NCBI GenBank assembly: GCA_022574255.1
Contig: JACZSK010000007.1
Coordinates: 1 to 61,253, forward strand
Reading direction: 5' to 3'
Origin: Pseudomonadota bacterium
Lineage (GTDB): Bacteria > Pseudomonadota > Alphaproteobacteria > Sphingomonadales > SMXR01
DNA: 61,253 bases
Shown here: positions 9,300 through 21,183 of the stretch, one piece after another
Layout of the letters: every line of letters begins with the position of its first letter
How positions within the stretch are numbered: the stretch's first letter is position 1
Program-made: the position numbers and the translations under genes
The notes under the pieces: generated by a model
The model's database searches: none
Told to the model about the DNA's origin: nothing
The model's input: only the letters and a program-made list of their open reading frames with translations

Positions 9300-9410
9300 T
9301 AAACCATACCATAATTATCAACTTTAATCAATTAATTGTGTAGTTAGATCACGTTTTACTTGTGAGTATTTTAAATTAATTTAATTAAAATTTTAAATAG
9401 GGCTGTGAGC
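9300..9410. other. AT-rich intergenic island
   Basis: About 110 bp almost free of G+C runs (for example CTTTAATCAATTAATTG and TTTTAAATTAATTTAATT), in a region that is otherwise above 60% GC. It contains several TTAATTAA-like palindromes and lies just upstream of the small secreted gene on the minus strand. It may be a promoter or nucleoid-protein binding region; no specific site is assigned. Confidence 0.6.
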
Positions 9411-9439
9411 TTGTTTATTAGTGTCGCTCACTCTTTCGC

Positions 9440-9553
9440 TCGTCATTCGCCGACCCTCTCTGCGTGATGCGCCTTGGCGGCGAATCCAGTCTTGCTTTTC
9501 TGCATAGTGCTAACAGAAAGCTGGACTCGCCGATCAAGTCGGCGAGTGACGAA
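9440..9553. repeat. Composite REP-like element (long left arm, 31-nt spacer, short right arm)
   Basis: The left arm CGTCATTCGCCGACCCTC extends through TGCGTGATGCGCCTTGGCGG to CGAATCCAG. The spacer is TCTTGCTTTTCTGCATAG plus TGCTAACAGAAAG. The right arm is CTGGACTCGCCGATCAAG plus TCGGCGAGTGACGA. Outer and inner parts of the arms are complementary, so it folds into a large hairpin. Its partner copy is at 30388-30499. Confidence 0.85.
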
Positions 9554-9563
9554 AAAAGGCGGC

Positions 9564-10022
9564 TCACTCCCCGGTTTCATCGCCCTTCTTCCCCCAGATC
9601 ACCCGCCAGCTGGCGAGGGTCAGCAGTACCCAGCCGGTGAGAAGCGAGAAGCCGCCAAGGGGCGTGGCCAGGCTGAGGGGGCCGAGACTGCCGAGCCCAT
9701 GAATACCCAGCCAGTAGAGCGAACCCGAAAACAGCAGGATGCCGAGGGCAAAGGCGCTGCCGGAATATTGCAGCCATCTGGCCGATCCGCCGCTTTCCTG
9801 TTCACCGGCCGTTCGGCCTGGGCAGAAATTAGCCAGCACGCCGACGCCGAGCAGCGCCAGGGCGTGCGACATCTGGTAGTCGGCGCCCTGCATATAGAGG
9901 GCGCGGCCCGCCGCGCTCATGCCGGCTTCGAAGGCATGGTCGGCCAGGGCGCTTGCAGCCACCGCAATAAAGCCGTTTATGCCGGCCAGAAACACCCAGA
10001 TGTTTGGTTCAATCTTTTGCAT
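9564..10022 (-). CDS. DUF423 integral membrane protein
   Basis: 152 residues starting MQKIEPNIWVFLAGINGFIA. Four predicted membrane helices: 8-28 (with the DUF423 hallmark GxxxxxAxALADHAFE), about 55-70 (HALALLGVGVLANF), about 90-107 (SAFALGILLFSGSLYWLGI) and about 120-143 (PLGGFSLLTGWVLLTLASWR). The segment FALGILLFSGSLY plus TPLGGFSLLTGW is the standard family signature (YwdK/YgdD type). The molecular function is unknown. The start lies inside the preceding gene (14-bp overlap with 10009-10284), so translation is probably coupled. Confidence 0.88.
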   Translation of the reverse strand: MQKIEPNIWVFLAGINGFIAVAASALADHAFEAGMSAAGRALYMQGADYQMSHALALLGVGVLANFCPGRTAGEQESGGSARWLQYSGSAFALGILLFSGSLYWLGIHGLGSLGPLSLATPLGGFSLLTGWVLLTLASWRVIWGKKGDETGE

Positions 10023-10284
10023 AACAGTCTGCCTGCATTTTGTTGGCGGTGAAGCCGCCCGTGCCGTTGCTGGCTGCAGTGCGGTAATAGAGTGCCATGG
10101 TGACCATGTGGGTCGGCGAATATTGCCGGTAGCCCTGGCAGCCGTCGGCATCGCGCTGCTCCAGCGGGATCATGTAGGAGTCCATGCCGGTCTGGATAGC
10201 GCCATCGGGGAGGGGATCGCTTTCCGCCTGCTGCGCGCAGGCGGCGAGGGTCATGAAAATTACGAGTGCCAGTAGCCTCCACAT
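10009..10284 (-). CDS. Small lipoprotein of unknown function
   Basis: 91 residues from ATG 10284: MWRLLALVIFMTLAACAQQ carries a lipoprotein signal with lipobox LAAC (Cys16). The mature part has GMDSYMIPLEQRDADGCQGY, then YSPTHMVTMALYYR and a late Cys (ADCYAKD), suggesting one disulfide. Its start is 10 bp after the subtilisin-like gene stop and its end overlaps the DUF423 gene, so the three form one operon. I do not recognise the family. Confidence 0.65.
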   Translation of the reverse strand: MWRLLALVIFMTLAACAQQAESDPLPDGAIQTGMDSYMIPLEQRDADGCQGYRQYSPTHMVTMALYYRTAASNGTGGFTANKMQADCYAKD

Positions 10285-10294
10285 GGAGACCAGT

Positions 10295-12610
10295 TTAGAA
10301 GGGCCGGCGCGCGCGGACAAGCACTGTCGTCCGCCCTCCGGCAAAGCTGCTGTGTCCGGCGTTGAACTGGCGCATGATATTGGCCTCAATCAGCGTGCCG
10401 CCCAGACCGCGCCACTGGTAGCTCATCTCCAGGTCAATCTCGCGGCCGCTGGGGGCCAGCGCGGCGCCCCTGGAGGTGAAGAGAATTTCGTCGGCCAGAT
10501 AGTCGCGCCCGGTGGGCAGGGTCAGCCCGATGGCGCCGCTCTCGATGCGCAGGGGCTGCGATACCGCCAGCCCGATGCGATCATGGGTGGCGAACAGCCC
10601 GTCCTTGGTAATCGCGGCGGCGAAGCTCATGCTGCGGAAATTGCTGATGCCGTCGATGAAGCTGCCCGCCCCGGCGGCGGATACCTGCGTATAGCCGTGG
10701 TTGAAGCTGAGGGTCAGCGTCATGTCCGCCGGCAGGTCGGCGCTTGCGCCAACGCTGGTAAACAGGCTGCCGGCACCGTCGCCCAGCGTCAGTGCGCCCG
10801 ACGACAGGGTTCCCAGCACCGCGTTCTTTTCGTTCACGGCGCTGAGTTGAAGCATCAGGTCGATGGGTCCAAGGCGGCGGCTGGCGCGCGCGGTGGCGGT
10901 AAGGGCCGTCGCCTCGGGGCTGTTGGCGCCGAACAGGAAGTCGTTCGACCGCTCATAGCGGGCGTAGGAAAAGGCGAAAGACAGCCGGGTGCCGCCTTTC
11001 AGGCTGTGCGACAGGGCCATGCTGGATTGCGATCCCGCGGGCGTAAAGGCCAACTCGGGTGCAAAACCGCTGGAAATAAAGCCCCGCGCGGCGCTGTTTC
11101 CACCCTCCTGCTGGTCCAGCAAGGTTATCGGCGAGATGCCGTAGGCGGTGGCGAAACTGGTGTTTTCACCAAGCTTTCCGGTGAAATAGGCGCTTGGACG
11201 CTCCAGGCGCGTCAGGGCCCGCTGGGCCATGGGCAGGGCGTCGGCCAGTTCGCGCTGGCGCTGGTGACGGTCGTAGAATGAAAGGCGCAGCAGGCTTCCC
11301 TCGATGGGTGACAGCGACAGCGCCTCGTAGGTGCGTTTGCGCTCCAGCGCGCCATAGAGGTCAAAGCCTTCGTTGGCCCGGCTGCGCAGGCGCTCGCCCA
11401 GGTCGATGGTGTAGGAGCGCCGGTAGCCGTCCAGCATCATCACGCCGTTCAACGCGCCGGTCAGGCCGAAGCCGTCGCCGAAAGCGCCGCTTGCGTCTAT
11501 GCCACTGCTGCCAAGCGGGGTAATCGAACCCGCCACGGCCAGCGACAATACACCCAAAGGCTGGACGGCGGCGCCCAGGTTAATCAGCCCGTGGCCGAAC
11601 TCGCTATCGACGCCGGGCGCCCCCAGGTCGATGGCCGTGCTGAGAAGAATTTCGAAGACTTCAATGCCGGTAAGCGCGGGAAACAATTCAAACATCACGG
11701 CGGCGGCGCCGGTGACATGCGGGGCCGAGAACGAAGTGCCCGACCCGATGCCCAGTGTGTTCTGGATGAATGTGGAGGTGATATCAACCCCGGGGGCGAC
11801 CACGAAATAATCCCGGGTGTTGCCGGCGTGGTTGGAAAAGCTGCTGCCCTCGTTGTTCGGGCCAATGGCGCCAACCACCAATATGCTGCCCTCGGCGCCA
11901 TCATGAATGGCGAACTGGGCAAAAAGACTGGGGTTGGCGGAATGATCGTTGCCCGCCGCGACGACGAACACGATGCCCGCATCAAAGGCGCGGAAATAGG
12001 CGTCATGCAGGGCTTGGCTCACGGGCGAACCGCCGAGGCTGAAGTTGATTATTCTGGCGCCGCTTGCGATAGCCGCATCAATCCCGGCGACCAGGTCATC
12101 GTCGTGGAAATGGCAGCCGTCGTCGCTGCTGCAAGAGCCCGGATCGTCGGCGCGAAGCACCAGAAGCTGGGAATTAAAAGCGACCCCGTGGACGCCAACA
12201 CCGTCCCTGCGGGCGGCGATTATGCCTGCTACGAAGGTGCCGTGGCCCCCTTCATCCTGGATGGTGCGGATCTGGCGGGTCCCCACCAGATCCTGGCTGT
12301 CGGGGTGAATCTGGCCGACGAATTCGTCGTGGTTCACATCAATGCCGGTGTCGATAACGGCGACGATCACGCCAGCGCCGCTCAATCCGTCGTCGTAGGC
12401 GGGAATGGCATTGATATTGTTCAGGCCGTAGTTGGCGCGGAATTCAGCAGTATCGAAGGCTGATCCCGTTGGCCCCGGAGGCGGCGGCGGTGCTGGCTGT
12501 GCTGGCGGTGGGGGCGGCGGCGGCGCTACCGGGCTGCGGACGGTGGAGCCGCCACAGGCGGTCAACAGCATCAATCCGCAAAGCATCAAGGAAGCCAGAA
12601 TCTGTCGCAT
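10295..12610 (-). CDS. Subtilisin-like (S8) lipoprotein with beta-barrel-like C-terminal half
   Basis: 771 residues from ATG 12610 (AGGTGA 8 nt upstream). Lipobox LTAC gives Cys19, followed by a Pro-rich linker (about 30-47). The S8 protease domain has Asp87 (VIDTG), His123 (GGHGTFVAG), oxyanion Asn221 (AAGND) and Ser293 (GTSFSAPHV), so the triad is complete. From about 385 the sequence changes to alternating polar/hydrophobic strands with many Gly, Ser and aromatic residues and ends VLVRARRPF, with the terminal Phe typical of outer-membrane barrels. This resembles a subtilisin autotransporter, but with a lipid anchor and the protease at the N-terminus. A Cys-containing insert (SCSSDDGCHFHDDD) lies near residue 160. 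Confidence 0.88.
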   Translation of the reverse strand: MRQILASLMLCGLMLLTACGGSTVRSPVAPPPPPPPAQPAPPPPPGPTGSAFDTAEFRANYGLNNINAIPAYDDGLSGAGVIVAVIDTGIDVNHDEFVGQIHPDSQDLVGTRQIRTIQDEGGHGTFVAGIIAARRDGVGVHGVAFNSQLLVLRADDPGSCSSDDGCHFHDDDLVAGIDAAIASGARIINFSLGGSPVSQALHDAYFRAFDAGIVFVVAAGNDHSANPSLFAQFAIHDGAEGSILVVGAIGPNNEGSSFSNHAGNTRDYFVVAPGVDITSTFIQNTLGIGSGTSFSAPHVTGAAAVMFELFPALTGIEVFEILLSTAIDLGAPGVDSEFGHGLINLGAAVQPLGVLSLAVAGSITPLGSSGIDASGAFGDGFGLTGALNGVMMLDGYRRSYTIDLGERLRSRANEGFDLYGALERKRTYEALSLSPIEGSLLRLSFYDRHQRQRELADALPMAQRALTRLERPSAYFTGKLGENTSFATAYGISPITLLDQQEGGNSAARGFISSGFAPELAFTPAGSQSSMALSHSLKGGTRLSFAFSYARYERSNDFLFGANSPEATALTATARASRRLGPIDLMLQLSAVNEKNAVLGTLSSGALTLGDGAGSLFTSVGASADLPADMTLTLSFNHGYTQVSAAGAGSFIDGISNFRSMSFAAAITKDGLFATHDRIGLAVSQPLRIESGAIGLTLPTGRDYLADEILFTSRGAALAPSGREIDLEMSYQWRGLGGTLIEANIMRQFNAGHSSFAGGRTTVLVRARRPF

Positions 12611-12698
12611 ATTTTTCACCTGTGTTGCCGCAATTATAGGCCTGTTCCGAAAACAGTGTCGCCGCAACATGGTAAATATATGGTGAAACGGACTTCAA

Positions 12699-13616
12699 CT
12701 AATTGTGAATATCAACTGCGGATGGCGCTTCCCGGCCTGCCAACGTCCCCAGGTTGGCGGAAAAGCCCCGATCGAGCTTTCGTTTTCGCGCCAACAGCAC
12801 AATCAACGCGAGATTCAGGGCCAGGGCCTCGAACAGAAAATAACCGATCGGCCAGCCGGCCAGCACGAATACGAAAATCGCCAGCGTATGGCTGTTGGCG
12901 CTCAGCACGCCCCAGCGATGCACATGGGCGGCGTAATGCCCGGCATAGCTGGCGGCAATGGCGCGGCGCGTCTCCGACCCGGCCGGGGCAAAGCTGTCAC
13001 CGTTTTCGGGAATTATGACGCCCTGGCCGTCGACCAGCCTCTGCAGCCGCACATAGGCCCACTCCAGCCACCAGAAGGTGCCTGCGCGCCAGGCCTCGCC
13101 CTGTGGTGTGCGGCCACGGGGCAGCGGCTTGTCGGCAGCGGTCCAGGCAACATATTTCTCGCGCTGCAATTCGTAGAGGGCCGCCTGGGCGATATGACTG
13201 GCGGCCGCAACCCAGCCCGCAACCCAGCCCCAGATCCCGTATTCGGGCTCTAAAATCCAGGCCAGCGCCGAATAGACCAGCATGAAGACTGAGTAATCCG
13301 CCAGCCCATCGACGATCCGCCCGGTGGGTGAGGCTTTGCCGGTGAGCCGGGCAACCTGCCCGTCGGCGCCGTCCATCACATGCCAGGCCAGCATGCAGGC
13401 CAGCGCCGCCAGTGTCTCGCCCCAAGGGCCTGCGCGGGCATAAAGCAGGGCGGCGGCAGCGCCAAATGCCAGTCCGGCCAGCGACACCAGGTTGGGATGC
13501 ACATGCGCGCGGGCCAGCAGTGGCGCCAGTCTGTTGCTCAGGGGGTGCAGCAGAAACCGGTTGCTAAGATTTTCGATCTCGGCCGGGCGCGAGGGGTTAT
13601 TTTGCGGGCCATTCAT
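12699..13616 (-). CDS. CDP-alcohol phosphatidyltransferase family protein
   Basis: 305 residues with several membrane helices. The catalytic motif is canonical: DGADGQVARL at about 82-91, eight residues, G, then DGLAD (D-x2-DG-x2-AR-x8-G-x3-D-x3-D). These enzymes displace CMP from a CDP-alcohol and attach the phospho-alcohol to a second alcohol, within the inner membrane. The substrate is not evident. Its ATG overlaps the stop of the RND exporter gene by 4 bp, so the two are translationally coupled and probably work together. It is 311 to 616 bp-scale separated from nothing else: the next gene on its right is the exporter and on its left an unrelated protease. Context with inositol-phosphate genes suggests a phospholipid head-group reaction. 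Confidence 0.88.
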   Translation of the reverse strand: MNGPQNNPSRPAEIENLSNRFLLHPLSNRLAPLLARAHVHPNLVSLAGLAFGAAAALLYARAGPWGETLAALACMLAWHVMDGADGQVARLTGKASPTGRIVDGLADYSVFMLVYSALAWILEPEYGIWGWVAGWVAAASHIAQAALYELQREKYVAWTAADKPLPRGRTPQGEAWRAGTFWWLEWAYVRLQRLVDGQGVIIPENGDSFAPAGSETRRAIAASYAGHYAAHVHRWGVLSANSHTLAIFVFVLAGWPIGYFLFEALALNLALIVLLARKRKLDRGFSANLGTLAGREAPSAVDIHN

Positions 13617-16297
13617 GACGCGCGGGGCTTTTCATTCGCCGACCGGCCAAACTTCAGCAGCAGCGGCGGCAGGGCCATGAAGGTGGCCAGCAGACAGGCG
13701 CCGAAGCCCAGCGTCGCCACGATGCCCAGTGATTTCAGGCCGCCCATGGAGGCCGCCAGCATGCCGGAGAAGCCCAGCATGGTGGTCAGCGTGGTCACCG
13801 CCGCCGCCCGCCCGGTGGTGCGCATGACGCGGCTCAGGCTGTCTTTCTCGACCGGCCCTCGTTCCTCGCTCAGCCCCCGTTCTTCGCTAAGTCGATGCAG
13901 GATGTGAATACCGTTGTCCACGCCGATGCCGATAATCGCCGGCAGGATGACCATGTTGAATATATTCAGCCGGATTCCCGCCCAGCCCATGATCCCGAAG
14001 AGCAGCAGAAGCGCCAGCGCCGGCGGCACCAGCACCAGCAAGGTCTTGCGCCATGAGCGGAAGAACAGCATCAGCGCCGCCACCGTGGCGCCCACGACCG
14101 CAAGGATGGCCTTCAGGGCGTCGCCCTTCATCAGTTCCAGCATGTCAACAAAGACCAGCCCCTCGGTGGCCGGATAATAGCTGCGTCCACCCACCCGGAT
14201 CACGCGGATATCGTCGGCGAATTGCCGCGCCAGGTCGGCCTGGTTCATGGATACGGAATTGAAAATATAGATGAGATGCCCGCCCACACCTTCACTGCCT
14301 GTGCCTTCATCTTCCGGGTCTCCAATGCCGGTGAACATGCGCTTCAGGCCTTGCGGCAGGTCATCGGGCGCGATCCCGCCAATCTCCAGGTAACGCCGCC
14401 AGTCGTCGCCGTCCGCGACGTCCTCTGGGGGGGGCGCCAGCCCCAACTCCCGCACGCTTTCCCTGATGCTGGCAATGATCGCCAGGCGCTCGGCCTGCAC
14501 CTCGGGCAGCGGCGCATAGGAATAGAAGGATTCCACCTTCTTGATGGTCGGCGTGTCGGTGTCGGCAGCCATATAGGCCTCAAAATATTCCAGGATGGCG
14601 CGCACTTCGCCGGTGGTCTCGACAATCAGCACGGCGCGGTCGGTGCCGTCGGGAAAGACCCTGGAGATGTTTGCCTGCATGGCATTGTGTTCCGCGCTGC
14701 GTGCCGCCTGAAGCCGGCCGAAATCCTTCTCGAAGCCGGCGCTGGTGGCCCACAGCGCCGCCGCAATCGCCAGTATAATCGTCACGCCCAGTGAAGCGCT
14801 GGGGTGCCGCACCGCCGCCGCCCACATCGGCGAGCCCATTTCCCTGCCGCTGCCCGGCGCCGGCGCCAGGCGCATTTTGTCGGCCATCACCAGCAACGAA
14901 GGGAACAGCACATACATGGCCAGGAAGGCCAGCAGTATGCCGGTTCCGGCGATCAGGCCAAATTCCCGGAAGGCGCGGAAATCGGTAATCATCAGGGCAT
15001 AAAAACCGGCCGCGGTGGTCAGCGCCGCCACCACCGAGGCCCGCCCGGTGTGGCGGAAAATAGCGCTCAGCGATTCTTCCAGGCTTCCGCCCCCGGCCCG
15101 CGTTTCGCTGAAGCGGGCGAGATTATGGATGCCGAAATCGACCCCCAGACCGAACAGGATCAACACCAGGAAAACCGTCACCAGATTAAGCCCGCCGATA
15201 ACAAGGGCGGCCAGCGCCATGGTCCAGAGAATGCTGACCACCAGCGGCAGTGCGATCAGCACCAGTGATGTGAGGCTGCGGAAGGTCGCCACCAGCAGCA
15301 GCGCGATCAGCGAGAAGCTCCAGATGCCGCTGGTTGATACGTCGCTGATCACCGCGTTGAACTGCACCACACGGTTATATATGCGTCCGCCCACCCGGGC
15401 CTCGAGATTGGCGCCATACGAGCCCGCATCCATTTCGCTGATTGCCCGGTTCAAATCACCGATAATGCGCTGCGAGGCCCCGAGGCCGCTGTCGGCGGGC
15501 CTGGGCCAGACCACCAGCAGGGTAACAGTGCCGCCATCGCCGTCACTGGCCTGAAACAGTCTCTGGCTTTCGGGGCCATCGAAGCCGGCGGAAGGCGCCC
15601 CCCCGCCGCCGGTTATGTCAGCTATTTCCCGCTCGATTTCTTCCCTGCTGATCGTCGGATAGGCGGGCTCGCTGCGCAGGTGAATAGTCACCGGAATCCC
15701 GGCGAACTCGCTGAAAAGAGAGGCGTCTGATGCTGCCGCCCGCTCTTCCAGCCGCGCCTTCAGCGCCCGCAGTGCGTCGGCTTCCAGGTAAAGCAGCCGG
15801 TGACGCGCGAACAGCGAGATATCCTCGGCATAGTCGGCGGAAGCCACCCAGTCGAATTCGGCGAGAATTTTGTCCCGCAGGTCGGCGGCGAAGCGCGCCC
15901 CGGCTTCCCGGCCATCCTCTCCGTCATCCTCTCCGCCGTTGGTGGTAATCACCACCATGGCGCTGGCGAAGCTGCCGGTTTTTTCCAGCACCCTGTGCAG
16001 ATTCTCGACGCTGGCCACGCCGTCGGGCATCAGGGCTTCCAGGCTGGTATCCAGCTTCAGCCGTCCCAGCGCCGACCAGGCCAGCGCCGAAAGGACCGCG
16101 GCGGCCAACAGAACCAGCCAGAAATGGCGCCGGTGAAGGCGGGCCATCCTGGCGGCCCAGTCATGGGCCCGATCATGAGCCCAACTCCCGTGATCTTTTT
16201 CACCGCGCTCGGTCAATTTGGACTTCCGGTTCGGCGGTCGCCCCGGTATACGACCTTGCACCATTGATTTCTGGTCCGGGCGGGCTGTAGCTTGCAC
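13613..16297 (-). CDS. RND superfamily (MMPL-type) exporter
   Basis: Up to 894 residues. It has the two-fold RND architecture: TM1 (FWLVLLAAAVLSALAWSAL, about 59-77), a large periplasmic loop, a helix bundle containing LFGLGVDFGIHNLARFSE, a second TM1-like helix (GVTIILAIAAALWATSAGF), a second loop, and a bundle with IGIGVDNGIHILHRLSEE. The paired G-x-GVDxGIH segments are the TM4-type motifs of MMPL/HpnN-like lipid exporters. The true start is uncertain: 16297, 16264 and 16147 (just before TM1) are all possible. Only 28 bp separate 16297 from the divergent gene on the right, so a shorter start would leave room for a promoter. It is coupled to the CDP-alcohol phosphotransferase, which points to lipid export. 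Confidence 0.87.
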   Translation of the reverse strand: MQATARPDQKSMVQGRIPGRPPNRKSKLTERGEKDHGSWAHDRAHDWAARMARLHRRHFWLVLLAAAVLSALAWSALGRLKLDTSLEALMPDGVASVENLHRVLEKTGSFASAMVVITTNGGEDDGEDGREAGARFAADLRDKILAEFDWVASADYAEDISLFARHRLLYLEADALRALKARLEERAAASDASLFSEFAGIPVTIHLRSEPAYPTISREEIEREIADITGGGGAPSAGFDGPESQRLFQASDGDGGTVTLLVVWPRPADSGLGASQRIIGDLNRAISEMDAGSYGANLEARVGGRIYNRVVQFNAVISDVSTSGIWSFSLIALLLVATFRSLTSLVLIALPLVVSILWTMALAALVIGGLNLVTVFLVLILFGLGVDFGIHNLARFSETRAGGGSLEESLSAIFRHTGRASVVAALTTAAGFYALMITDFRAFREFGLIAGTGILLAFLAMYVLFPSLLVMADKMRLAPAPGSGREMGSPMWAAAVRHPSASLGVTIILAIAAALWATSAGFEKDFGRLQAARSAEHNAMQANISRVFPDGTDRAVLIVETTGEVRAILEYFEAYMAADTDTPTIKKVESFYSYAPLPEVQAERLAIIASIRESVRELGLAPPPEDVADGDDWRRYLEIGGIAPDDLPQGLKRMFTGIGDPEDEGTGSEGVGGHLIYIFNSVSMNQADLARQFADDIRVIRVGGRSYYPATEGLVFVDMLELMKGDALKAILAVVGATVAALMLFFRSWRKTLLVLVPPALALLLLFGIMGWAGIRLNIFNMVILPAIIGIGVDNGIHILHRLSEERGLSEERGPVEKDSLSRVMRTTGRAAAVTTLTTMLGFSGMLAASMGGLKSLGIVATLGFGACLLATFMALPPLLLKFGRSANEKPRAS

Positions 16298-16325: not shown

Positions 16326-17708
16326 GTGAATAGCCACGCCCGCATGATCAGGAACGCCCTTATTTTTGTCGATGATGCCTCGGATGACGGCGCCGACGCG
16401 CCGCGCTCTCTGCTCGTCGTCGGTGGCATTACGCTGCTGGAGCGCCAGTTGCGGCAGCTCAAGAAAGCGGGCGTCGAAGAGGTGCGCATTTATTCACGTA
16501 ATTATCCGGAGATGCTGCACGACCGCACCGCAGGGTTCAGCATGATGCCAAACAAGATTTCGGTGCAGGACGCCGCCGCACCGGCGCAAAGCCAGTGGGA
16601 CGAAGCCGAGACCCTGCTGGTTCTTGAAGAGGGCGTGCTGATCGATGACCGGGTGATCGGGGAACTCGCCAAGGCGCCGAAGGCCCCGGCGCTGGCCTTG
16701 TTTCCGCCCCGCACCGTGGCTTACGGTCAGGCCTGCGGGCAGACCGTGACGCCCGGTGATGGCGCCGGGCGGCTTTTTGCTTCGGTGGCGCTGCTGCCCG
16801 GTAAATTCCTGCCCAGGGCGCTGGCGGCGGCGGCCAAGGGAGAAAACCCCCTGTCGGGCATGCTTGATGCGGCGGCGGCCCTGAAGAGCACAGAGATTAT
16901 TAATGTGGGCGCTCTGGACCTCTATATCCCCGACCGGCGGCGCAAGGTGGGGTTGCTGTGGCGTCCGGTGACCGCGGCCGCCGAAAGCCGCCGTGCCACC
17001 CGGGTTATCCTGGACATGGCGCAAAAGGGCACCCTTGACTGGCCGGCGCGCTGGATACACCCGGCTTTCGAGAATTTCCTCGTTACAATTTTGCTCGGCA
17101 CACCGGTGACGCCCAATGCCGTGTCGCTGCTGACCGGGGTGCTGGGCTTTTACGCCACCTACCTGTTTGCCACCGGGCAGATGGGCTGGGCGCTGCTGGG
17201 CGCCCTGCTGGTTGGCATGCTGGATGGCGTTGACGGCAAGCTGGCGCGGGTCAAGATGCTGGCCACCAAGCTGGGCCAGCTGGAACATGTTCTGGACAAA
17301 TTGGTCGAGTATTCGTGGTATTTCGCGATTGCTGCATTTCTGGCGGCGGAGGCAGGTGACGGTGGTGGCGGTGCGCCCTGGGCCCTGGCCATCCTGATCG
17401 TGGCTTTCGCCTGGGCTGAAGTATTGCAGGGAGAATATTACCGGCGCATGACCGGCAGTCAGCTGGACGATGCCGGCGCTTTTGAGCGTGGTTTCCGCAT
17501 TATCGGCGCGCGCCGCAACACCATTATGTGGAGCCTGGTGCCCTTTGCCCTGACCGAAAGCTGGATGGTCGGATTATGGACCATGGGTATTTATACCATG
17601 GTCACTTTTTTCGTGGCCCAGTGGCGGTTTATTGTGCGGCTAAAGACTTATGCCAGCGGCGCAAGTCAGGAAATCAGTGACAACTTCCGGAAGTCGGAAT
17701 ATTTCTAG
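16326..17708 (+). CDS. CDP-alcohol phosphotransferase with degenerate nucleotidyltransferase N-domain
   Basis: 460 residues from GTG 16326 (or 454 from ATG 16344). Residues about 7-220 resemble a sugar-type nucleotidyltransferase (LLVVGGITLLERQLRQLKKA, GVEEVRIYS), but the nucleotide-binding G-x-G-x-R loop is missing at the N-terminus (IFVDDASDDG instead). Residues about 255-450 are a membrane CDP-alcohol phosphotransferase with MLDGVDGKLAR, followed by VKMLATKLGQLEHVLDK. Here the last two acids (E and D, four apart) are one position off the canonical G-x3-D-x3-D register. Archaeal/thermophile IPCT-DIPPS proteins have this domain order. It starts an apparent operon with Ino1 and an NTP transferase, so inositol phosphate transfer is the likely job. 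Confidence 0.85.
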   Translation: MNSHARMIRNALIFVDDASDDGADAPRSLLVVGGITLLERQLRQLKKAGVEEVRIYSRNYPEMLHDRTAGFSMMPNKISVQDAAAPAQSQWDEAETLLVLEEGVLIDDRVIGELAKAPKAPALALFPPRTVAYGQACGQTVTPGDGAGRLFASVALLPGKFLPRALAAAAKGENPLSGMLDAAAALKSTEIINVGALDLYIPDRRRKVGLLWRPVTAAAESRRATRVILDMAQKGTLDWPARWIHPAFENFLVTILLGTPVTPNAVSLLTGVLGFYATYLFATGQMGWALLGALLVGMLDGVDGKLARVKMLATKLGQLEHVLDKLVEYSWYFAIAAFLAAEAGDGGGGAPWALAILIVAFAWAEVLQGEYYRRMTGSQLDDAGAFERGFRIIGARRNTIMWSLVPFALTESWMVGLWTMGIYTMVTFFVAQWRFIVRLKTYASGASQEISDNFRKSEYF

Positions 17709-17792: not shown

Positions 17793-18926
17793 GTGTCGAA
17801 CAGCATTAGAGTAGCGATCATCGGCGTCGGCAATTGCGCGAGTTCGCTGGTTCAGGGAATAGCCCATTACAGTGGCTCGTCAGGTGGCGAGAGCGTCGGC
17901 CTGATGCATGCGAATCTGGGCGGCTATCGGCCTTGTGATATCCAGGTCGTGGCGGCCTTCGATATTGACCGGCGCAAGGTCGGGCTGGATGTGGCCCAGG
18001 CCATTTTTGCCAAGCCCAATTGTACCAAGGTTTTTTGCGCCGATGTGCCGGCCACAGGCGCCATCGTGCGGATGGGCCGTATTCTCGACGGCTTTTCGGA
18101 TCACATGGCGGACCTGCCGGACGACCGGACCTTCCTGCCCGCCGACCGGCCCCAGCCGGACCAAGACGACGTTGTTGCGGAATTGAAGAAATCCGGCGCT
18201 GAAATCCTGCTCAACTACCTGCCCGTGGGCAGCCAGGAGGCGACCGAGTTTTACGCTGAATGCGCGCTTGATGCGGGCTGCGCCTTTATCAATAATATTC
18301 CCGTCTTTATCGCCAGCGATCCGGCATGGGCGGCGCGTTTCAGGGCCAAAAGGCTGCCGATTATCGGCGACGACATCAAGTCGCAACTGGGCGCCACCAT
18401 CGTGCACAGGGTGCTGACAGACCTGTTCAAGAAACGCGGCGTTGATTTGCAGCGGACCTATCAGCTGAACACCGGCGGCAACACCGATTTTCTCAATATG
18501 AAGAATATCGATCGACTGAAGTCGAAAAAAATATCCAAGACCGAGGCAGTCCAGTCGGTGACCGAAGCGCGCCTGAACGAAGAAGATATCCATATCGGCC
18601 CCAGCGACTATGTGGCCTGGCAGGAGGACAACAAGGTTGCCTTCATTCGCATGGAGGGCAGGTTGTTCGGTGGCGTGCCGATGAATATGGAGATCAGGCT
18701 GTCGGTCGAGGATTCGCCCAATTCCGCGGGCGTCGCCATCGACAGCATCCGCTGCTGCAAGCTGGCGCTGGATCGAGGTCTGGGCGGTATTATCGAAGGG
18801 CCGTCGGCGTATTTCTGCAAGCATCCGCCGCAACAATATACCGACGACGATGCCTGGAATCTGACCGAGGCTTTTATTCGCGGCGAGACGATTTTGGCGC
18901 AGCCAGAGGTTGACGCAGCCGAGTAA
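17793..18926 (+). CDS. ino1: myo-Inositol-1-phosphate synthase
   Basis: 377 residues from GTG 17793, with TGAGGA 7 nt before it. The Rossmann motif IGVGNCASSLVQGIAHY is at 10-26. Conserved blocks of the bacterial/actinobacterial-type synthase follow: DIQVVAAFDIDRRKVG, LLNYLPVGSQEATEFYAECA, FINNIPVFIASDP, IGDDIKSQLGATIVHRVL and YQLNTGGNTDFLNM. The last blocks contain the catalytic lysine region. The enzyme converts glucose 6-phosphate to inositol 1-phosphate with bound NAD. Length agrees with the short actinobacterial type (about 360). It is between the fused CDP-alcohol phosphotransferase (84 bp upstream) and an NTP transferase (34 bp downstream). Confidence 0.95.
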   Translation: MSNSIRVAIIGVGNCASSLVQGIAHYSGSSGGESVGLMHANLGGYRPCDIQVVAAFDIDRRKVGLDVAQAIFAKPNCTKVFCADVPATGAIVRMGRILDGFSDHMADLPDDRTFLPADRPQPDQDDVVAELKKSGAEILLNYLPVGSQEATEFYAECALDAGCAFINNIPVFIASDPAWAARFRAKRLPIIGDDIKSQLGATIVHRVLTDLFKKRGVDLQRTYQLNTGGNTDFLNMKNIDRLKSKKISKTEAVQSVTEARLNEEDIHIGPSDYVAWQEDNKVAFIRMEGRLFGGVPMNMEIRLSVEDSPNSAGVAIDSIRCCKLALDRGLGGIIEGPSAYFCKHPPQQYTDDDAWNLTEAFIRGETILAQPEVDAAE

Positions 18927-18960: not shown

Positions 18961-19689
18961 ATGGACTGCCTGATTATCGCCGCCGGCATGGGCACGCGGC
19001 TCAGTGAAATTGGCGAATCAAAGCCGCTGGTGCCAGTGCGCGGCGTACCCTTGATCGAGCGCGTCATCATCACCGCCAGGCAGGCGGGTATCCGGAATTT
19101 CACCATCGTCACCGGCCACAGGGCCGAGCAGGTGGAAGATTATCTCAAATCCGCCGCGGTGCGTTTCAGCGCCGATCTCACCTTTTGCCGCAATGATCGC
19201 TATGAGGCGCCAAACGCGCTGTCGGTGCTGGCGGCGCGCGGTCATATCCGGGCGCCCTTTCTGCTGACCATGTGCGATCATCTGTTTGACCCCCTGATCA
19301 TATCTGATTTGATGGGGCAAAGTCTGGGCGAGGGCGAAGTGATGCTGGCCATCGACGGGCGGCTGGGCAACCCGATGGTGGATTTAGGCGACGTCACCCG
19401 GGTGCTGGAAAAGGATGGCCTGATCCGGAATATCGGCAAGGGATTGCGCGCCTATAACGCCTTCGATACCGGGCTGTTTCTGGCCGGCGAGGGCCTGTTC
19501 GACGCCATCGAAGAGGCGCGTTCGGTGGGCAGCGAGGTCAATATTTCCGCCGCCTTGATGCGCCTGGCGGCACGGGACAAAGCGCGCTGCTTTGACATCG
19601 GCGAACGCTTCTGGATCGACGTCGATGATCCGGCGGCTCTGAGGCGCGCCGAATCCTATTTACTGGGCATGCCGGTGCGCCCCCTGTGA
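18961..19689 (+). CDS. NTP transferase, probable CTP:inositol-1-phosphate cytidylyltransferase
   Basis: 242 residues. The N-terminal signature IIAAGMGTRLSEIGESKPLV carries the G-x-G-T-R loop and the lysine of sugar-phosphate/phosphocholine nucleotidyltransferases. TMCDHLFDP (about 100-108) and the C-terminal FWIDVDDP hold the metal-binding acids. Families with this pattern make CDP-choline, CDP-inositol or NDP-sugars. Because it lies directly after inositol-phosphate synthase and beside a phosphotransferase whose own NTase domain looks inactive, CDP-inositol formation is the best inference. Start ATG 18961 follows GGGGGCTAGGGG. An intrinsic terminator begins at its 3' end. Confidence 0.8.
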   Translation: MDCLIIAAGMGTRLSEIGESKPLVPVRGVPLIERVIITARQAGIRNFTIVTGHRAEQVEDYLKSAAVRFSADLTFCRNDRYEAPNALSVLAARGHIRAPFLLTMCDHLFDPLIISDLMGQSLGEGEVMLAIDGRLGNPMVDLGDVTRVLEKDGLIRNIGKGLRAYNAFDTGLFLAGEGLFDAIEEARSVGSEVNISAALMRLAARDKARCFDIGERFWIDVDDPAALRRAESYLLGMPVRPL

Positions 19690-19716
19690 ACAGGGCCGTC
19701 AGGGGCCGGGTTTTTT
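19672..19716 (+). terminator. Putative intrinsic terminator of the inositol operon
   Basis: CCGGTGCGCCCCCTG pairs with CAGGGGCCGG across a 13-nt loop, followed by GTTTTTTCC. It overlaps the end of the NTP transferase and of the convergent flippase gene, so it could end the rightward transcript. Confidence 0.5.
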
Positions 19717-21183
19717 CCTCAGATGCTCCAAGAGCGTGCGGTCATCGGCGCTGATGCCCAGCCGCCACAGCGTTCCGGCGTAAACCACCACCAGAACCAG
19801 CACCCCCACAGCGATGCCGTATCCCCGGTCGAGCGCCATGAATTCACCTGCCGCGAAATAGCCGGCGAGCGCCAGTGCCGCCGCGGCGACGGGCCGCAGA
19901 AAAGAAGCGCGCAACAGCGTAATCCGGAAAAGTCCGTAGGCCACTACCAGCCGCTGGCCATTCAGGACAGTCAGGGAAATCATCAGCGACATAGCCGCGC
20001 CGGGGCCGCCCAGCAGCGGCACCAGCAGGGCGCAGCCGGCCACATGGACAATCAGCCCGGAAAGGCTGATGACCAGATTGAGCTTGGGCTGGCGAAACAG
20101 GATGGGCAATTCGGCGGCGCCCAGCACACCATCAATCATTTCGGCGCCAACCATGATGACCAGCAGCATGGCGCCCGCGCCCATGCCCGGCCCCACCAGC
20201 GCGAGGATGTGGCCGCCATAAAAGGCCAGCAGCATGACCTGCAGCAGCATGATGGTCAGGATCCAGCGGCTGACCTGCGAGAGCTGCCGCCCGGCGTTGG
20301 GCAAGTCCTGGCGGGCGATGGTCTGTGAGACAATAGGCGCGAGGATGGGGTCGAACAGATAGCGGGTTTTCTGAGCAAGCTGGGCAATATGCTGGGCCGC
20401 GTGATAAATGCCGACCACGGTCTCGCTGGAGAAATGCCAAAGGAAGAAGATATCAACCCGGCGGAACACCAGCGCCATCACATCGACCACGGCGGTGGGG
20501 CTGGATACCATGACAATGCGCCGCACCAGCGTCCAGGAGGGGCGGGCGCCGAGCACGCGTCTCAGGCTGTAGACCCGCCCGAACCCCCAGGCCGAGGCCA
20601 CATAGGCGACCACCAGCGCGCCGAAATAGGCGGCCATCAGTCCGGCTTCAAGGAAACCGGCCCAGTAAAACCCCAGGGTCAGCGCCGCCAGGGTCCAGGG
20701 TTCGGCGATGGAGCGGGCGATCACCTCGTAGCGCATCAGCCGCTTGTGCCGGGTGGCCGCCAGCATGACGTCAGACAGGGCGATCAGCGGAATGACCAGG
20801 GCAAATCCGCGATAGGGCCCGCCCGCGGGCATGTCGATCAATGGCCAGAAAACCGCATAAAGCAGCAGCGCAAAGACCGTCGAGAGGATTGCCGTTACCG
20901 CCAGCGCATTGAGAATGATCGCATTCTGGTCGGCGCCTTCCGCGTCCAGCAGGGCAAAGAGCGAGCGCTTCTGCCCGAAAACCGCGATCGCGGCCAGCGT
21001 CTCGACCACCGCAATGGCATAGGCCAGCACGCCGAAGCGCTCGGCGCCATAAAGATTGCCGGCCATCAGCAGGAACAATATCCGCGCCCCCGAGCGCACC
21101 ACAAAACCGCCCGCCGCGGCCAGCGCGCCCTTGAGGATATCGGTGATATCCTTCAGCGCGTGATCTGTGATGCTTTGGTTCAA
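19699..21183 (-). CDS. MOP-superfamily flippase (Wzx/MurJ-like, polysaccharide or lipid)
   Basis: 494 residues with 12-14 predicted membrane helices. The start MNQSITDHALKDITDILKGA is followed by GGFVVRSGARILFLLMAGNL, as in O-antigen/teichoic-acid flippases. Later blocks include AVDVMALVFRRVDIFFLWHF and PILAPIVSQTIARQDLPNAG, common in the polysaccharide_synt_C class. It should translocate a lipid-linked substrate from the cytoplasmic to the periplasmic face. It is convergent with the inositol operon (9 bp apart), so a functional link is plausible but not shown by operon structure. No glycosyltransferases are adjacent. Confidence 0.82.
   Translation of the reverse strand: MNQSITDHALKDITDILKGALAAAGGFVVRSGARILFLLMAGNLYGAERFGVLAYAIAVVETLAAIAVFGQKRSLFALLDAEGADQNAIILNALAVTAILSTVFALLLYAVFWPLIDMPAGGPYRGFALVIPLIALSDVMLAATRHKRLMRYEVIARSIAEPWTLAALTLGFYWAGFLEAGLMAAYFGALVVAYVASAWGFGRVYSLRRVLGARPSWTLVRRIVMVSSPTAVVDVMALVFRRVDIFFLWHFSSETVVGIYHAAQHIAQLAQKTRYLFDPILAPIVSQTIARQDLPNAGRQLSQVSRWILTIMLLQVMLLAFYGGHILALVGPGMGAGAMLLVIMVGAEMIDGVLGAAELPILFRQPKLNLVISLSGLIVHVAGCALLVPLLGGPGAAMSLMISLTVLNGQRLVVAYGLFRITLLRASFLRPVAAAALALAGYFAAGEFMALDRGYGIAVGVLVLVVVYAGTLWRLGISADDRTLLEHLRKKPGP

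Follow-up and report, generated by a model that had tools for sequence, protein, structure and literature searches.

The forward-strand reading frame at 16,326-17,708 in the analysed stretch of 61,253 nucleotides (hereafter the window) joins a nucleotidyltransferase (NTase)-like domain to a CDP-alcohol phosphotransferase (CDP-AP) domain. It raises the question of whether such a fused protein, encoded close to an intact stand-alone NTase, is still an enzyme and, if so, in which pathway. Based on sequence comparison, here it is proposed, with a probability of roughly two in three, that the window carries a cluster for CDP-inositol lipids, that the fusion protein (FUS) is a probably active variant transferase with a pseudo-NTase domain, and that sister lineages have turned the same protein into a pseudoenzyme. 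The features are collected in Table 1.

Table 1. Features of the fusion gene and its neighbours in the window.
Feature	Position	Strand	Remarks
FUS, pseudo-NTase domain + CDP-AP domain	16344..17708	+	likely start ATG 16344, alternative GTG 16326
N-terminal NTase-fold domain of FUS	16344..16967	+	residues 1-208; without GxGxR loop, metal Asp and WxDVD
TM1 motif P257-N-A-V-S261	17112..17126	+	P(D/N)xx(S/T) nucleotide-binding motif of CDP-APs
CDP-AP signature	17223..17297	+	D294, D297, G298, A301, R302, G311, E314 (at D3), D318 (D4)
Inositol-3-phosphate synthase (MIPS)	17793..18926	+	
Stand-alone IPCT-like NTase	18961..19689	+	intact GxGxR loop, MCDH, WIDVDD
CDPAP2, second CDP-AP	12699..13616	-	fully canonical signature
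HpnN/MMPL-like RND transporter	13613..16297	-	divergent neighbour; candidate lipid exporter
Polysacc_synt-type flippase-like protein	19699..21183	-	conserved neighbour

The fusion protein and its N-terminal domain

The gene is a real open reading frame of 460 aa when read from the GTG, or 454 aa from the ATG, which is the more likely start because relatives begin there. FUS belongs to the CDP-AP superfamily by its Pfam score (PF01066, 37.4 bits against a gathering score of 22), and its closest named profile is that of the bifunctional IPCT/DIPPS (NF041135), at 57.1 bits and far below the curated cut-off of 580. The AlphaFold2 model (pLDDT 93, pTM 0.90) and Foldseek show the six-TM fold with the signature on TM2 and TM3; in the model, D294 and D297 lie within helix 280-304, and E314 and D318 are one helical turn apart on helix 311-337. 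The top PDB matches cover the full length and include 4MND (IPCT-DIPPS), with a TM-score by target length of 0.66, and AF2299 (4O6M_A and 4O6N_A), with 0.79-0.80.

As had been noted, the N-terminal domain lacks the GxGxR loop, which is intact in the NTase at 18,961 (LIIAAGMGTRL), and a search for the loop elsewhere in the domain did not find it. Comparison with this NTase and with a true bifunctional enzyme encoded in L201, a member of the bacterial family to which the window belongs, showed that two more landmarks are gone, namely the metal Asp (MCDH/MIDH to LEEG) and the WxDVD motif (to WRPV); the stand-alone NTase retains all three. Of 112 family members, 109 have no such loop and none has W-x-D-x-D, which argues for an ancient loss and against a split peculiar to this organism. 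The three remaining regular-expression matches to GxGxR were chance strings (e.g., GQGLR, within a decayed region) or, in L105, doubtful. By this comparison, the loss is old and family-wide and the domain is an ancient pseudo-NTase, with its catalytic residues lost and its fold and selection kept. The earlier suggestion that one enzyme had been split and its domain retained is thus right in that a non-catalytic NTase domain persists beside a stand-alone intact NTase, but the organism-specific split is rejected.

The same landmarks bear on the idea that FUS is itself a bifunctional IPCT/DIPPS producing the soluble solute di-inositol phosphate. Its domain order and fold are as in 4MND; however, the cytidylyltransferase site that such an enzyme needs is absent, all three landmarks being missing, which refutes this function. 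A true IPCT-DIPPS with both sites intact is found separately in L201, and the conserved neighbours of FUS are lipid-type transporters, leaving the idea with hardly any probability.

The phosphotransferase motif

The published CDP-AP signature, D1xxD2G1xxAR...G2xxxD3xxxD4, is described as having eight absolutely conserved residues including D3, of which D1-D3 bind the metal and D4 is the likely base (PMC4634129). The stretch DGVDGKLARVKMLATKLGQLEHVLDK is present in FUS as originally read, and its later acids, E and D, had been described as shifted by one position. That shift disappears on alignment: phmmer and hmmsearch comparisons with 4MND and AF2299/4O6M, as well as an alignment of 116 rows, match E314 to D3 and D318 to D4. 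Since all four acids are then in register, the shift is refuted by the criterion set with the original reading. The apparent displacement arose because positions were counted from G2. What stays is the deletion of one residue between G2 and D3 and the replacement of D3 by Glu. FUS therefore departs from the published signature, having D1, D2, G1, A, R, G2 and D4, with Glu at D3 and a spacer of two residues, not three.

These departures are common to its relatives. In a set of 88 rows, found with patterns that omitted R, G2, D3 and D4, the site types were Glu at D3 with a spacer of two (E3/spacer 2, 58 rows), E3/spacer 3 (11 rows), D3/spacer 3 (18 rows) and loss of D4 (one row, L060). Relatives bridge the change and bear out the register, with intermediates such as GDLLDHTLD (D3, spacer 3) and GDRYEHILD (E3, spacer 3), next to GQLEHVLDK (E3, spacer 2) of the window. 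D1, D2, R, D/E3 and D4 are all kept in 87/88 rows, which is more than chance, and most rows have a His after the acid at D3. The TM1 motif defined in PMC4634129 is kept in 84/88. The form G2-x2-E-x3-D was found across many bacterial phyla and in Lokiarchaeota and can therefore serve as a subfamily marker; the suggestion of a distinct subfamily thus agrees with the alignment, the tree and the 88-row scan.

FUS is claimed here only as a variant CDP-AP subfamily, by homology and fold, and not as a canonical member. Given the kept catalytic positions, the TM1 motif, the model and the PDB matches, the phosphotransferase site of the window copy looks competent as a subfamily variant. We know of no assayed enzyme that combines E3 with the short spacer.

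Six gammaproteobacterial metagenome-assembled genomes (MAGs; L086, L089, L093, L095, L099 and L100) have two FUS-type genes each near a gene for an HpnN-like transporter. One gene is of the D3/spacer 3 type and the other of the E3/spacer 2 type, so the two kinds of site occur together in a single cluster.

Gene neighbourhood and a putative CDP-inositol lipid pathway

The window encodes together MIPS, a putative CTP:inositol-phosphate NTase and a CDP-AP, the gene set of a CDP-inositol lipid pathway, and it is probable that it holds such a cluster, with substrates assigned by homology. The IPCT/DIPPS model gives the stand-alone NTase 119.6 bits, which is below the cut-off of that family for the fused protein. 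The order CDPAP2(-)/FUS(+)/MIPS(+)/NTase(+) recurs in Sphingosinicella, Polymorphobacter, Sandaracinobacter(oides) and other named alphaproteobacterial loci, and MIPS follows FUS directly in most of the named loci and in Lokiarchaeota. CDPAP2, MIPS and NTase also occur without FUS (L173, L174 and L176-L178), which points to CDPAP2 as the constant transferase, and its catalytic residues are invariant in 12/12 aligned sequences, including partners of FUS copies that have lost their own.

By homology, MIPS would provide inositol phosphate, the stand-alone NTase would convert it to CDP-inositol, and the membrane CDP-APs would transfer phospho-inositol to a lipid alcohol. CDPAP2 would be the constant transferase and FUS a second one, probably still active, of the subfamily with Glu for the third metal Asp and the shorter G2-D3 spacer. 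The pseudo-NTase domain of FUS would no longer make CDP-inositol; docking or regulation is its most likely role. Loss of the transferase site has occurred several times in sister lineages, with the protein, above all its pseudo-NTase domain, kept by purifying selection, so that a membrane pseudoenzyme has arisen repeatedly.

FUS could instead be active on another CDP-linked donor or acceptor (e.g., a ceramide lipid, as in the Caulobacter CPG2 pathway), since CDPAP2 alone may cover CDP-inositol. Related NTases take other substrates such as phosphoglycerate (PMC12275187), and the tree places CPG-type CDP-APs as distant relatives. However, the position of MIPS directly after FUS in most named alphaproteobacterial loci and in Lokiarchaeota, and the closest profile being that of an IPCT/DIPPS enzyme, make this unlikely, and CDP-inositol stays the preferred donor.

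Several further arrangements were observed. The window has a subtilisin-like autotransporter gene (10,295-12,670, -) that is also conserved next to either CDPAP2 or FUS elsewhere, in the relatives L036, L037, L038 and L044. A single Anaerolineales open reading frame (L109, 1-2034) contains an intact-looking NTase, a pseudo-NTase and a CDP-AP; L106, also from Anaerolineales, has these parts on overlapping open reading frames, with an active-looking NTase overlapping the FUS gene. Three separate Lokiarchaeota assemblies (MAGs L126, L128 and L134) have the order NTase-FUS-MIPS, and from this gene order a CDP-inositol lipid pathway in Asgard archaea is possible. In L175, a CDP-AP-containing frame (9359-11503) reads DCVDGDIAR...GALLDTACD; close to it is an additional NTase, next to MIPS and NTase genes. 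The true bifunctional IPCT-DIPPS of L201 (1357-4718, G005:C97) has the LILAAGLGSRL loop, WLDVD and the canonical GGWFDAVLD intact; it is accompanied by an inositol-monophosphatase-like gene, identified by eye, and a second MIPS, which makes a di-inositol-phosphate cluster in an alphaproteobacterium possible.

Loss of catalytic acids in related lineages and comparison with known systems

In the window's own order, orthologues of FUS lack two to five of D1, D2, R, D3 and D4, with a different pattern in each lineage (genomes G002, G057, G042, G063, G030, G069, G078, G072, G081, G038, G014, G003, G004, G001, G053 and others); these are called dead here. Many of the genomes compared are MAGs. On a tree of 115 rows, built after removing the motif columns, the 18 dead rows require five changes, at least three of them forced by well supported branches. 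All of these changes fall in the alphaproteobacterial clade, although the scan outside the order (pattern L[DG]GVDGKLA) favours intact copies.

The dead reading frames are full length, with dN/dS of about 0.10-0.17, dS being near saturation in many pairs. The ratio of N-domain to TM-domain dN has a median of 2.03 in live pairs (13 disjoint pairs, 12 above 1) and is 0.53 in dead pairs (six pairs from about three lineages, all below 1; Mann-Whitney p = 1.5e-4). In the dead copies, it is the already dead NTase domain that is under the strongest purifying selection, opposite to the pattern of the intact copies. The model of a dead Emcibacter copy (L059) retains the NTase domain and the TM bundle (pLDDT 89). 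In sister lineages the whole protein thus has the marks of a pseudoenzyme, having lost its CDP-AP residues in a full-length frame under purifying selection. None of three dead copies tested with Pfam exceeded any gathering score, so such copies escape routine annotation.

The death of close relatives invites the view that the window FUS is non-catalytic too, its short spacer and D3-to-E change abolishing metal binding and CDPAP2 doing all the chemistry. Canonical D3 is called absolutely conserved (PMC4634129), and CDPAP2 suffices in some genomes. Yet many phyla keep the E3/short-spacer site along with intact D1, D2, R and D4, among them lineages in which no CDPAP2 adjoins (e.g., Lokiarchaeota), and the TM domain evolves more slowly in live pairs, as expected for catalysis; a non-catalytic window copy is therefore improbable. 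In the preferred reading of FUS as a transferase, the activation domain of the window copy is dead and its catalytic site is unusual but probably working, and the copy, which looks active, belongs to a lineage in which pseudoenzymes have repeatedly arisen.

A model of five dead copies had matches in 171 of 399 Sphingomonadales genomes. The matches spread over 31 of the 82 genera and stay within a single family. About 11 of the 171 were taken as intact clusters (strong full-length matches with MIPS, several of them read). In the other 160, all 43 copies read were dead, 37 of them coming from one batch of 38 copies read; MIPS was absent at the cut-off used in 118 of these 160 genomes. Most of 20 inspected loci sit between comEC and gltA, and the intact Polymorphobacter cluster L166 also adjoins comEC. 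In 17 of the 20 loci, the gene is followed on the same strand by one for a histidine kinase, often with a DUF2336 gene in between.

Dead FUS is also present in genomes without MIPS, NTase or CDPAP2 (G014, G165 and G127), so a simple role as partner of CDPAP2 or NTase cannot hold everywhere. An obligate partnership with CDPAP2 was first favoured from FUS-CDPAP2 gene pairs in genus g25 and was weakened by these genomes; in that genus, dead FUS lies next to genes for a pyridoxal-dependent decarboxylase and a TPR-repeat protein, which gave no lead on function. The dead form looks like a relic that persists after the loss of its pathway and serves some function of its own. More tentatively, the family may have repeatedly yielded a widespread membrane pseudoenzyme, composed of a dead cytidylyltransferase fold and a dead CDP-AP, which in Sphingomonadaceae-type genomes outlives the inositol-lipid pathway in a new role, perhaps, in view of the histidine kinase gene that follows it, in signalling, the window copy representing the still-active ancestral state.

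These observations name a conserved and apparently unstudied protein present in about 40% of the sampled Sphingomonadales genomes. A large natural CDP-AP subfamily that keeps seven of eight signature residues, with Glu for D3 and a shorter spacer, makes the tolerance of the metal site directly testable. Members of the family have also turned repeatedly from enzymes into non-catalytic membrane proteins, selection moving from the catalytic domain to the already dead one, and the family thus offers a comparative system for the origin of pseudoenzymes.

Among known systems, the Archaeoglobus fulgidus IPCT-DIPPS (4MND) has, like FUS, an NTase-like domain followed by a six-TM CDP-AP, collinear over the full length; in FUS, by contrast, the cytidylyltransferase site is missing, D3 is Glu and the spacer is shorter by one residue, and its score is 57 against the cut-off of 580. 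AF2299 (4O6M), the match with the highest TM-score by target length, is likewise a CDP-AP with an N-terminal cytidylyltransferase-like domain, so a fusion of this kind was already known; however, AF2299 has the canonical G2xxxD3xxxD4, is archaeal and processes CDP-glycerol, not a CDP-linked lipid. As in pseudoenzymes generally (reviewed in PMC5106787), dead FUS has lost catalytic residues and retained fold and selection; a literature search found no CDP-alcohol phosphotransferase pseudoenzyme.

At the pathway level, the CDP-inositol route to inositol ether lipids of Rhodothermus marinus (Jorge et al. 2015, as cited in PMC9246714) uses, as far as that citation describes it, CDP-inositol as head-group donor, with the same logic of NTase, CDP-AP and MIPS as the window. 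The likeness is one of gene logic, and the window has two transferases, one of them with a pseudo-NTase domain. In Bacteroidetes, an alternate inositol-lipid cluster with an NTP transferase, a CDP-alcohol phosphatidyltransferase and a HAD hydrolase by MIPS (PMC9246714) also places MIPS beside an NTase and a CDP-AP; in contrast, the window has no HAD hydrolase among its scanned neighbours and adds the fusion protein, the RND transporter and the flippase.
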